Source of the DNA: Lactiplantibacillus nangangensis
GTDB taxonomy: Bacteria > Bacillota > Bacilli > Lactobacillales > Lactobacillaceae
DNA length: 64,000 bases
NCBI RefSeq assembly: GCF_005405065.1
Contig: NZ_BJDI01000007.1
Coordinates: forward strand, 62,001-126,000
Direction: 5' to 3'
Shown here: positions 7,944-62,215 of the stretch, in pieces
Position numbering within the stretch: position 1 is the stretch's first letter
Layout: each line of letters opens with the position of its first letter
The notes under the pieces: generated by a model
What the model saw: the letters and a program-made list of their open reading frames with translations, nothing else
Database searches by the model: none
Told to the model about the DNA's origin: nothing
Translations under genes and position numbers: made by a program

Positions 7944-8153
7944 GTTAATTAGCTGTAGGTTGTTGCTGATAGCATCGGCCGTGCAGGTGGCGTTTGACCG
8001 GCGAATTTCCGGTCTTACACCACGGACCGGCCGAAAGACTTGCGGTTTAAGCAAGTCTTCCGGGCGAGGATCAAGACGTCCCTCAGGCTTGACCCGGTCC
8101 CTCGGCCGCATGCCATCAGCAACAACCGGAAGCGGCAATCATCAAGTATCTTT
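7944..8153. repeat. 210-bp structured intergenic repeat, copy A
   Basis: A GC-rich element whose second copy, of the same length, lies at 61232-61441 (about 22 differences by hand count). It folds as a long closing stem (GGTTGTTGCTGAT near 7958 with ATCAGCAACAACC near 8115, continued by GCAT/ATGC and CGGCCG/CGGCCG) around several inner hairpins: GTGG..CCAC enclosing GACCGG..CCGGTC; AAGACTTGC..GCAAGTCTT; TCAAG..CTTGA; and an outer GGACCGG..CCGGTCC. It ends two bases before the stop codon of the second diguanylate cyclase gene. Short ORFs across it are shadows. Confidence 0.85.
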
Positions 8154-8155
8154 AG

Positions 8156-9289
8156 TTACACACTAGTAATTTGCATTCGTCCATTACGTTTAGAATGATA
8201 CAAATTTTGGTCAACCCGATTATAAAAATCGATTGGCGAATTATCATTAGCCGATAGCGTTGAAACCCCGACTGAAATTGAAATATTCAGTCGACCACTC
8301 GCTGTTGATAGCGTCAGATGATTAAGTGCATCGAAAATCTGGGCCACAATTGTTTCAGTTGCAGCTAAATCTTTATTAGGAAAAAGAATATTAAACTCTT
8401 CGCCACCGGTTCGATATAATTTTACGTCTGGATCATTTGCATCCAAGACCGCTTGAACCGTGGTCGTGACGTGTTGCAACACGTGATCACCAACAATGTG
8501 ACCATAAGTATCGTTGACCTGCTTAAAGTGATCGATATCAAACATCATCATACTAACCGGCTGCTGAGTCTCGTGGCTGTTTTCAAATAACCTTTGACTT
8601 GCTTCCGTGTAAGCTGCAAAATTTTCAGCTTGTGTTAGCGCATCATGGTTAGCATACTGTGCCAAATGAACTTTCAATTCGCTATCGTGTGTCAACATCG
8701 TGACATAAACATAGAGTAAAATTTCAAAAATGACCAAGTATAGCCATTCTTCACCAAATATGTGCCAAGTCAAATTATATTTGAACGTCATCCAAACCCA
8801 CAGGATGCCCCCAAAGACAATTCCAGCAGCTAAGTAACTCAACGGTGCCCAAGGAAAAGTCCGAACTTTGACGCGTAATTGATTGAGCACCCAGAAAAAA
8901 GCGATTAACGTCAGCGCATGCCCCCACGATTGCCAGGAGGCCAATGAACCATCGTAAATAATAAACGCAATCAGAATACCAATGAAGAATGGTGATGGCA
9001 CATGCCCTTGCAAAAAATAGCCGCAGAAGATAATGGCAATCAGTTGGAAGTTCATAAACTGCCACGCCTCACAGCTACCGACAACGATTGTTTGGATACA
9101 AAAAACAAAGACGGCCATATAAATGACTGCATACCAAGTATTGAGCTGACTATCGGTCAATTTTATCCGGCGATGATGATGTACCCAAGTCGTTAACCAG
9201 TTATAGGTAACCCAATATAATGTGAGCATGCCTAAAACAAAGAAAACGCTAGTAATAAATGGTGGCACTTGCCAATGGCTCCAGGTCAT
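8156..9289 (-). CDS. Membrane diguanylate cyclase (GGDEF domain), paralogue
   Basis: Protein of 377 aa, collinear with the cyclase at 3341-4471: the same MTW..WQVPPF start, an N-terminal multi-helix region, then MMMFDIDHFKQVNDTYGH and the active-site loop RTGGEEFN. It should convert GTP to cyclic di-GMP. As in its paralogue, no RxxD I-site precedes GGEEF. The pair most likely arose by duplication, with the PTS unit now between them. RBS GAGGAAGG. The 210-bp repeat abuts its 3' end. Confidence 0.9.
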   Translation of the reverse strand: MTWSHWQVPPFITSVFFVLGMLTLYWVTYNWLTTWVHHHRRIKLTDSQLNTWYAVIYMAVFVFCIQTIVVGSCEAWQFMNFQLIAIIFCGYFLQGHVPSPFFIGILIAFIIYDGSLASWQSWGHALTLIAFFWVLNQLRVKVRTFPWAPLSYLAAGIVFGGILWVWMTFKYNLTWHIFGEEWLYLVIFEILLYVYVTMLTHDSELKVHLAQYANHDALTQAENFAAYTEASQRLFENSHETQQPVSMMMFDIDHFKQVNDTYGHIVGDHVLQHVTTTVQAVLDANDPDVKLYRTGGEEFNILFPNKDLAATETIVAQIFDALNHLTLSTASGRLNISISVGVSTLSANDNSPIDFYNRVDQNLYHSKRNGRMQITSV

Positions 9290-59768: not shown

Positions 59769-61231
<1,463 letters not shown>

Positions 61232-61441
61232 GTTAACTAGCTGTAGGTTGTTGTTGATGGCATCGGCCGTGATGGTGGCGTTTGACCGGCGATTTTCCGG
61301 TCTTACACCACGGACCGGCCGGGAGACTTGCGGTTTAGGCAAGGCTTCCGGGCGAGGAGCAAGACGTTCCTAAGGCTTGCTCAGGTCCCTCGGCCGCATG
61401 CACTCAACAACAACCGGAAGCGGCAATTACCAACTATCTTT
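61232..61441. repeat. 210-bp structured intergenic repeat, copy B
   Basis: Same length and orientation as copy A at 7944-8153. The closing stem here is GGTTGTTGTTGA with TCAACAACAACC; inner hairpins GACCGG..CCGGTC inside GTGG..CCAC, and GAGCAAG..CTTGCTC, are kept although bases changed. It lies downstream of the minus-strand DUF1129 gene, beyond that gene's terminator. Confidence 0.85.
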
Positions 61442-61452
61442 CATATGCTTGT

Positions 61453-61491
61453 AAAAAAGAAACCTAAGCTCAAGCCTAGATTTCTTTTTTT
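61453..61491. terminator. Terminator of the DUF1129 gene (bidirectional)
   Basis: AAAAAGAAA.CTA.GC pairs with GC.TAG.TTTCTTTTT around a short TCAA loop, four bases past the stop codon. Confidence 0.8.
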
Positions 61492-61495
61492 AACA

Positions 61496-62215
61496 CTAAA
61501 ACATGCTAGAAGTAATATTAAATTTACGTTTGAGCCATAACCGTGCAAAGAAGACAATGGCAGCAATGACTAAGTAAGCCGCTGCTGGCAAGGCTGGATT
61601 CAAGGCTGATGGCAACATTGCGGCCGTCGTAAAGATTAACATCCAAACGACCACGGCTAAAATTGACCATAGAATTTTACGCCACATTGGCACCTTAGGC
61701 TTATTCTTGTCTGGTGCTAAATATTCGAATAACTTAGCGACCCCAAGACCACCGACGATGGAAGTCAGCAAGATTGCGGTAATCCCATTGGCGCCTTGTG
61801 AATTTTGTGAGGCCTTGGAAATGAAACCCATGACCCCATACATCAAGCAAAAGATCATGAATAACATTAAACCGTTATCCAATGACGTGACCCAATAGTT
61901 CGCTTGGGCTTGTTCCCGTGGTGATTTCTTGGGACCTTCGATGATGGCTTGGGTCCGTTCTTGAACCGTACCATACAATTGGCGTGCAGTCGTCCCTTTA
62001 TGTTGTTCTGCTAACAACGTCGCAGTCATTTCATCGAGAGCTGCTTTTTTCTTTTCGCCCGATAAAGCTGTTGCATTTAATGACTTACGCATTTGGCGCA
62101 TGTATTCATCATTACGCTTCGTTAGTTCGGTATCATCACGTAATGGCTTTTCCGACGCCTGAATCTGCTTTGCGCCCGCTTGCGCATTGCGTGGCTTGTT
62201 TGGCCCTTCACTCAT
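61496..62215 (-). CDS. DUF1129 family membrane protein
   Basis: Protein of 239 aa. A charged N-terminal half (NDEYMRQMRKSLNATALSGEKKKAALDEM) precedes four hydrophobic segments in the C-terminal half. This fits DUF1129, a Firmicute family often beside ychF near the origin. Role unknown. RBS GGGGGA. Confidence 0.85.
   Translation of the reverse strand: MSEGPNKPRNAQAGAKQIQASEKPLRDDTELTKRNDEYMRQMRKSLNATALSGEKKKAALDEMTATLLAEQHKGTTARQLYGTVQERTQAIIEGPKKSPREQAQANYWVTSLDNGLMLFMIFCLMYGVMGFISKASQNSQGANGITAILLTSIVGGLGVAKLFEYLAPDKNKPKVPMWRKILWSILAVVVWMLIFTTAAMLPSALNPALPAAAYLVIAAIVFFARLWLKRKFNITSSMF

Follow-up and report, generated by a model that had tools for sequence, protein, structure and literature searches.

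The two 210-bp repeats of the window (the whole 64,000-nt stretch of Lactiplantibacillus nangangensis DNA analyzed here) are probably old copies of a MITE that is moved in trans by an IS4-family transposase and whose plus-strand fold works in single-stranded form, most likely as RNA. Each 210-bp stretch is the right-hand part of this transposable element, and its complete form, together with an insertion sequence bearing the same ends, was found in a sister species (G001).

The two copies in the window

The first-pass annotation had placed two copies of equal length at 7944 to 8153 and 61232 to 61441; these positions are right, and the copies are 90% identical over 210 bp. The multi-hairpin fold closed by a long stem that it had described was recovered in copy 1 and fits copy 2, which matches the structure model at full length, and both copies lie, as claimed, downstream of minus-strand genes (copy 1 after the gene at 8156 to 9289, copy 2 after that at 61496 to 62215). 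Two copies are indeed present in the window, but they are only the window's share of a genome-wide family of at least 56, and 210 bp, taken as the size of the element, does not coincide with a natural limit: the conserved unit delimited by R1, a covariance model of 174 positions and 64 pairs built from 34 sequences, spans ~172 to 175 nt and consists of a closing stem, P1, and three hairpins, P2 to P4 (Table 1). Compared with dinucleotide shuffles, the fold of copy 1 has z-scores of -6.3 on the plus strand and -9.3 on the minus strand. No terminal inverted repeat (TIR) was found within three mismatches beside either copy, a limit that the probable TIR relic of copy 2 exceeds, and no target duplication is visible by eye at the edges of the copy 2 insertion. 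The gene neighboring copy 1 is matched in 18 of 21 genus genomes; it is a GGDEF gene, and several stretches related to it occur in the same genome (e.g., G000:C7:65351-66471).

Table 1. Features of the two copies, in window positions
Feature	Position	Strand	Basis
Copy 1, conserved structured unit (P1 and P2 to P4)	7957..8128	+	R1 covariance model, 188.9 bits, full length
Copy 1, hairpin P2 (GTGGCGTTTGACCGG...CCGGTCTTACACCAC)	7987..8023	+	Consensus structure; coordinates counted from the sequence
Copy 1, hairpin P3	about 8029..8065	+	Consensus structure
Copy 1, hairpin P4 with CAAGAC...GGCTTG motif	about 8068..8095	+	Consensus structure
Copy 2, conserved structured unit	61245..61416	+	R1 covariance model, 183.9 bits, full length
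Copy 2, whole inserted DNA, ~420 bp	61029..61450	.	Approximate, by eye; against the 158-bp uninserted guaB interval in G001
Copy 2, probable left TIR relic (CTAAAGAAACTAGA versus CTAAAGGTTGAAAG)	61029..61042	+	Inference from its place at the insertion edge
Intrinsic terminator of gene 61496-62215, adjoining copy 2	61453..61491	-	Read from the sequence; kept in G001

The site of copy 2 can be compared with its uninserted state. The gene at 61496 to 62215 is matched in all 21 genus genomes, and the interval between it and guaB measures 158 bp in G001, 163 to 177 bp in three genomes, and 193 bp in two, with no unit found at E <= 0.01 in these six genomes. The same interval is 579 bp long in L. 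nangangensis, 678 bp in G013, where it holds a full inverted pair, and 677 bp in G009, where the pair lies in the opposite orientation; the remaining intervals range from 253 to 1270 bp and include a short unit (L258) and a weak partial match (L262), while L255 is without guaB. The copy 2 insertion adjoins the terminator of gene 61496-62215, which is kept at the uninserted G001 site. Upstream of guaB, at 60921 to 60975 of the window, ~55 nt are almost identical across the nine genus genomes compared; such conservation goes beyond the need of a plain leader, and a regulatory site is possible.

A 31-nt core motif, allowed up to three mismatches, has 51 matches in the 2.9-Mb L. nangangensis assembly, as opposed to none for the reversed control pattern, and 56 distinct copies were extracted. 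This number is a lower bound, since 40 of 106 candidates received a score in the blast search; these 40 are ~10 to 16% divergent from copy 1 and have patchy flanks. The copies of this genome are old and have mostly lost the TIRs and the left unit, and they look immobile. Most units are single, an opposite-strand neighbor lying within 500 bp at six loci (L027, L034, L050, L060, L065, and L074), each time in the order minus then plus. A protein-coding reading was dropped: none of the 56 units is overlapped by more than 60 bases by an open reading frame (ORF) of at least 130 aa, and the complete G001 element at L105 holds none above 72 aa; ORFs of at least 130 aa overlap one unit in G001, one other unit of the genus, and two units of other genera. 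A phage, plasmid, or viral origin was likewise dropped, since DNA-level searches with L. nangangensis-type sequence gave no match. In two copies (L067 and L070), P2 became a perfect palindrome, seemingly in one step, and G001 has a longer one at L112; by eye, these palindromes resemble a footprint of template switching on hairpins.

The complete element and its partner insertion sequence

G001 has 22 matches, and most of the 15 that were extracted are near-identical to each other. The complete element is ~540 bp long in most of them (544 bp at L105), with sharp ends and 14-bp TIRs (left, CTAAAGGTTGAAAG; right, CTTTCAACCTTTAG). Target duplications were recounted by hand wherever both ends are present, which holds for 18 places (17 elements plus the insertion sequence; L108, which is without the right TIR, was left out): six are identical, flush, and at least 8 bp long, one of them 9 bp, three are 8 bp long with one mismatch, five comprise 7 identical bp (the insertion sequence being one of these), and four places are without a duplication. 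The element carries no transposase gene, and in the L105 element, the only one scanned, neither a sigma-70-like promoter nor an internal terminator was found. Folding an intact element gives a single structure that its TIRs close (z-scores of -13.5 on one strand and -11.0 on the other). For 9 of the 18 places, a terminator-like hairpin is present no more than 70 bp from an end, versus 23 of 282 random points (Fisher P = 1e-5), a contrast that is overstated with respect to intergenic sites because the random control points are mostly coding; the terminators stand to the left of some elements and to the right of others. L117 and L118 miss the same P3 and P4 from one unit, yet they occupy different sites with perfect duplications, for which reason the P3 and P4 arms of one unit are probably dispensable for transposition. 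By GC-skew sampling, the right-hand unit is co-oriented with replication in 14 of 19 elements (P = 0.06).

An intact insertion sequence (IS) of 1,567 bp in G001 (L114, 1127 to 2693) has the same ends as the MITE and is flanked by the 7-bp duplication ATAGGAG. Its 457-aa protein is an IS4-family transposase (NF049925, 460 bits versus a cutoff of 250) and contains the YREK motif Y(2)R(3)E(6)K once (P0001, residue 333). Both its length and its duplication lie within the ranges of the ISPepr1 subgroup of the IS4 family, given as 1,500 to 1,600 bp and 7 to 8 bp in an excerpt of PMC2266710, and its ends fit the ISPepr1 consensus YT-AA-YTT---A at seven of eight positions, position 7 being the one that differs. 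We interpret the element as a MITE moved in trans because the same inverted repeats bound this intact ISPepr1-like IS; the anatomy is directly visible, and movement by the IS transposase would fit it. The 39 contigs of the L. nangangensis assembly gave no match to the G001 transposase. Matches occur in 7 of 21 genus genomes, G004 having an uninterrupted relative (56% identity) and the others being interrupted or in pieces. Of the readings offered in the first-pass annotation, a non-autonomous mobile element is therefore the one borne out, by TIRs, target duplications, an IS with the same ends, and an uninserted site.

Two units arranged head to head

In each of the five full-length G001 elements searched, R1 also has a full-length match to the left half, in inverted orientation (E = 5e-19 to 9e-14), and the order of the element is TIR, minus-strand unit, short spacer, plus-strand unit, TIR. 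In G002, 32 of 44 strong units are paired, all 32 pairs being minus then plus, and the same order holds for 16 of 16 opposite-strand neighbors at the other loci searched with R1 (13 distinct sites, some of them orthologous). Same-strand neighbors also occur (L198 and L201); at L198 (1501 to 2170, G014), three direct copies without P4, ~270 bp apart, form a tandem array.

A fold conserved on one strand

Of the 133 units extracted, 120 were placed in alignment A1 (3 L. nangangensis units and 10 near-identical G001 units were left out) and 34 in A2; the consensus structure comes from a cleaned A1, the raw alignment having given a poor, partial structure in RNAalifold. Within the genus, tested on 112 rows after 8 odd or very divergent A1 rows had been left out, 69 Watson-Crick double changes fall on single tree branches within the 67 proposed pairs, versus 0 to 7 with the partners slid and a mean of 2.2 (maximum of 9 in 200) with random re-pairing, and a strict tree-based pairwise test with a simulated null gave only one significant pair. 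Across genera, 57 distinct units (about 45 from other genera, the rest from divergent members of Lactiplantibacillus) show 311 Watson-Crick double changes versus 5 to 18 with slid partners and at most 22 in 100 re-pairings, these controls using the same alignment, which was made with the model and leans to the structure. In this alignment, from which one further identical row had been removed, 34 of 64 pairs covary at E <= 0.05 and one significant pair lies outside the structure, the tree-based null being a re-implementation of the R-scape idea and not R-scape itself. The first-pass annotation had proposed a covariance model with a covariation test, and had named two outcomes that would speak against its reading: many copies with neither covariation above background nor transcripts, or identity with an element already described. 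The model built from the units gives covariation that is significant across genera by the R-scape-like null, and Rfam returned no family match; on these points the reading was not refuted.

The two strands differ in how well they fold. With RNA parameters, the plus strand (window +) is the better one in most cross-genus units (53 of 57) and G002 partner units (31 of 32), and the minus strand is better in 3 of 53 L. nangangensis units and 4 of 112 genus units; with DNA parameters, the plus strand is better in 111/112 genus, 56/57 cross-genus, and 32/32 G002 partner units. (One wrong-strand match and L206, a duplicate of L191, were removed from the cross-genus strand, G-U, and mismatch counts.) The 210-bp piece of copy 1, by contrast, folds better on the minus strand; an RNA from that strand was rejected because so few of the L. 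nangangensis units (3 of 53) share this preference. Because one strand folds better in nearly all units, selection appears to act on one single strand, and single-stranded folding, as RNA or as ssDNA, is conserved. G-U pairs are few (143 of 3,466 cells, with 78 A-C), so ssDNA is a possible form of the active strand.

In most copies, the mismatches occupy constant positions (C-A and T-T in P2, A-G in P3 and P4), GGA/GNA at the base of P1 is fixed likewise, and loop motifs are conserved across genera. The conserved A-G, T-T, and GGA/GNA mismatches would fit recognition or tertiary contacts; the common C-A mismatch in P2 is a G-U on the minus strand and points the opposite way. In L. nangangensis, pairing survives the single changes that fall on internal branches (15 to G-U, 2 to A-C, and 1 other), whereas those on terminal branches break pairs (48 to G-U, 46 to A-C, and 29 other; Fisher P = 0.0006), which fits a fold that is needed during spread and released after insertion; with all 112 units included, internal and terminal branches do not differ significantly (P = 0.12). 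At orthologous sites of another genus, units changed at a rate of 55/1,042 (5.3%) versus 102/1,009 (10.1%) for adjacent intergenic DNA (P = 4e-5; three comparisons at two loci, all of them sharing L216 and one genome), and constraint after insertion is possible in that genus.

Occurrence across the Lactobacillaceae

Among 151 sampled genomes from 40 genera of the family, R1 detects the unit in 23 genomes and 9 genera, with at least 18 matches in each of 12 unit-bearing genomes, and a sample of the order (246 genomes) gave five matches, all within the Lactobacillaceae; weak units are missed in both scans because the filters are strict. P4 is absent from some units (L193 to L199), and single units exist (L201). 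A search for TIRs at 15 inverted pairs, taken from other genera and from divergent members of the genus, gave nothing convincing; a TIR of the genus type was seen by eye beside the divergent unit of G007 (L101). Five units of G071 (L190, L222, L226, L229, and L232) were compared by eye: most have a conserved ~75-nt leader, most have a 17-nt tail ending in AAGGTAGA or CAGGTAGA, and three have CTACCTT at the left. By the same comparison, this leader and these ends are a different vehicle for the same unit. Its presence in nine sampled genera, as inverted pairs and as singles, makes the unit older than its IS4-type vehicle.

Few sites are shared between L. nangangensis and G002. Flanks match in 6 of 56 L. 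nangangensis copies when compared with the 45 sampled G002 copies (only about half of those in G002), 3 of them on both sides, and the identity of the 6 cores differs by no more than 0.03 from the mean against other G002 copies. Since these cores are no closer than paralogues, independent insertions or homogenization are likelier at the shared sites.

Role of the fold and alternative explanations

In the mechanism that we propose, a strongly folded unit forms the core of a non-autonomous DNA transposon, which an ISPepr1-like IS4-family transposase with the same TIRs would move in trans, often to sites beside intrinsic terminators. The plus strand of the unit has been kept foldable by compensatory changes. 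This strand would act as a single-stranded fold, and RNA from read-through transcription is its most likely form because the fold is strand specific, the pairs stand head to head, and insertion takes place beside terminators; with a head-to-head pair, transcription from either side would yield one correctly folded unit. The fold may thus serve the element's own life rather than regulate each neighboring gene. The idea of a non-coding RNA family, also raised at the outset, is supported in part, in that the fold covaries across genera and is strand specific; the molecule may be ssDNA.

That the fold acts as ssDNA, for example in the lagging-strand template, where a host or transposon protein would read it as with REPINs and the ends of IS200/IS605, is a reading we consider somewhat unlikely. 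REPINs have inverted pairs too, the bias toward the plus strand is just as evident with DNA parameters, G-U pairs are scarce, the co-orientation with replication of 14 of 19 G001 elements (P = 0.06) points the same way, and Y1 transposases occur in 11 of 23 unit-bearing genomes versus 33 of 128 others (P = 0.045). Yet the L. nangangensis assembly has no Y1 match and at least 56 copies, the two better-folding strands of an inverted pair lie on opposite DNA strands, and the G001 element has TIRs and target duplications, neither of which Y1 elements are known to have. As a co-occurring partner protein, Y1 was set aside, its overlap being too weak, and so was IS4 (7/23 versus 19/128, P = 0.08). 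Read-through RNA from a mobile element also has to be weighed against a host function, in which each unit is a 3'-end element (an mRNA stabilizer, an insulator, or a transcription barrier) selected at its own site. Such a function would account for the 25 of 54 L. nangangensis copies found between convergent genes as opposed to 4 of 54 between divergent ones, as well as for the slower evolution of units than of neighboring intergenic DNA at orthologous sites of one other genus. It is made improbable by the rarity of common sites (6/56 versus the 45 sampled G002 copies), by flank-matched cores that are no closer than other G002 copies, by the freedom with which L. nangangensis terminal branches break pairs (48 G-U, 46 A-C, and 29 other), and by the lack of a downstream bias in other genera (8 convergent and 12 divergent of 45, both units of pairs included). 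The 3' UTR module of the first-pass annotation is not upheld, given that G001 terminators stand on either side and that in tandem gene pairs the better-folding strand is mostly antisense, in 55 versus 27 sense among 82 pairs from five sets (P = 0.003) and in 33 versus 12 (33/45) for L. nangangensis and G002 alone; sense copies may harm the preceding gene.

The covariation itself might be a mutational by-product, with imperfect palindromes copied arm to arm by template switching and no selection involved. Clear cases, judged by eye, are the perfect P2 palindromes of L067 and L070 and the extended one of L112 in G001; as a general account it is very improbable, because mismatches stay fixed in the base of P1 and in P2, P3, and P4 of most copies, a single pair is altered on 30 of the 45 branches that carry double changes, loop motifs persist from genus to genus, and one strand is nearly always the better one.

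Relation to known systems

A wider reading, which we regard as unlikely, is that the Lactobacillaceae harbor a new class of selfish multi-helix RNA or ssDNA module that changes vehicles and in which the fold is the replicating or protecting agent, a bacterial counterpart of SINEs. If this were true, the module would have been multiplying from before the split of the genera, reaching dozens of copies or more in a genome, with an IS4-type MITE as its vehicle in one genus and other or no recognizable ends elsewhere. Food applications of Lactiplantibacillus and its relatives are widespread. The element joins a MITE with IS-type ends and a compensatory fold kept across genera, two things usually kept apart, and so offers a testable case of what a structure is worth to a mobile element; the G001 deletion variants, the intact IS, and the uninserted sites are ready experimental material, and with a covariance model, genome annotation could flag copies of the unit.

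No description of this repeat family was found in the reachable literature on MITEs, interspersed or cloverleaf repeats, and structured RNAs of lactobacilli or on insertion sequences that seek terminators, outside which most subscription journals lie, and an earlier description is possible. The stem-loop families of bacterial genomes in PMC2267715 include Lactobacillus johnsonii, and a term search gave no mention of plantarum. With the structured RNAs of Rfam 15 the unit shares a conserved, covarying multi-helix fold; none of its families scored above threshold for the units, and copy 1 had no match up to an E value of 1 (one weak match to a microRNA model, 21.9 versus a threshold of 60 bits, was obtained at L189, and matches to tRNA and PreQ1 lie outside the units).

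Among mobile elements, BOX, RUP, and SPRITE of Streptococcus pneumoniae are described in part of PMC3049150 as non-autonomous, high-copy, foldable MITEs of mostly old insertion, over-represented between convergent genes, BOX and RUP having TIRs and target duplications. Our element shares all of these traits but differs from them in being an inverted pair of ~175-nt multi-helix units, with covariation across genera and ends that match an IS4-family IS. As regards the ISPepr1 subgroup, as far as an excerpt of PMC2266710 covers it, the G001 IS agrees with it in length, YREK motif, 7-bp duplication, and seven of eight end positions and departs from it at end position 7; the MITE shares the terminal 13 to 14 bp and not the transposase. 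REPINs and their RAYT transposases, as portrayed in part of PMC3116915, offer the likeness of inverted foldable pairs, the pair being the intact form and singles, in this genus, looking like remains. The unit described here is, by contrast, several times longer and multi-branched, and its TIRs and duplications fit a DDE transposase; a check for a link to RAYT (Y1) transposases gave no Y1 match in the L. nangangensis assembly and a weak overlap over the 151 genomes, and no dedicated Y1 partner was found. To conclude, the element is in kind a MITE that resembles REPINs, and its unit, its fold, and its reach look new.
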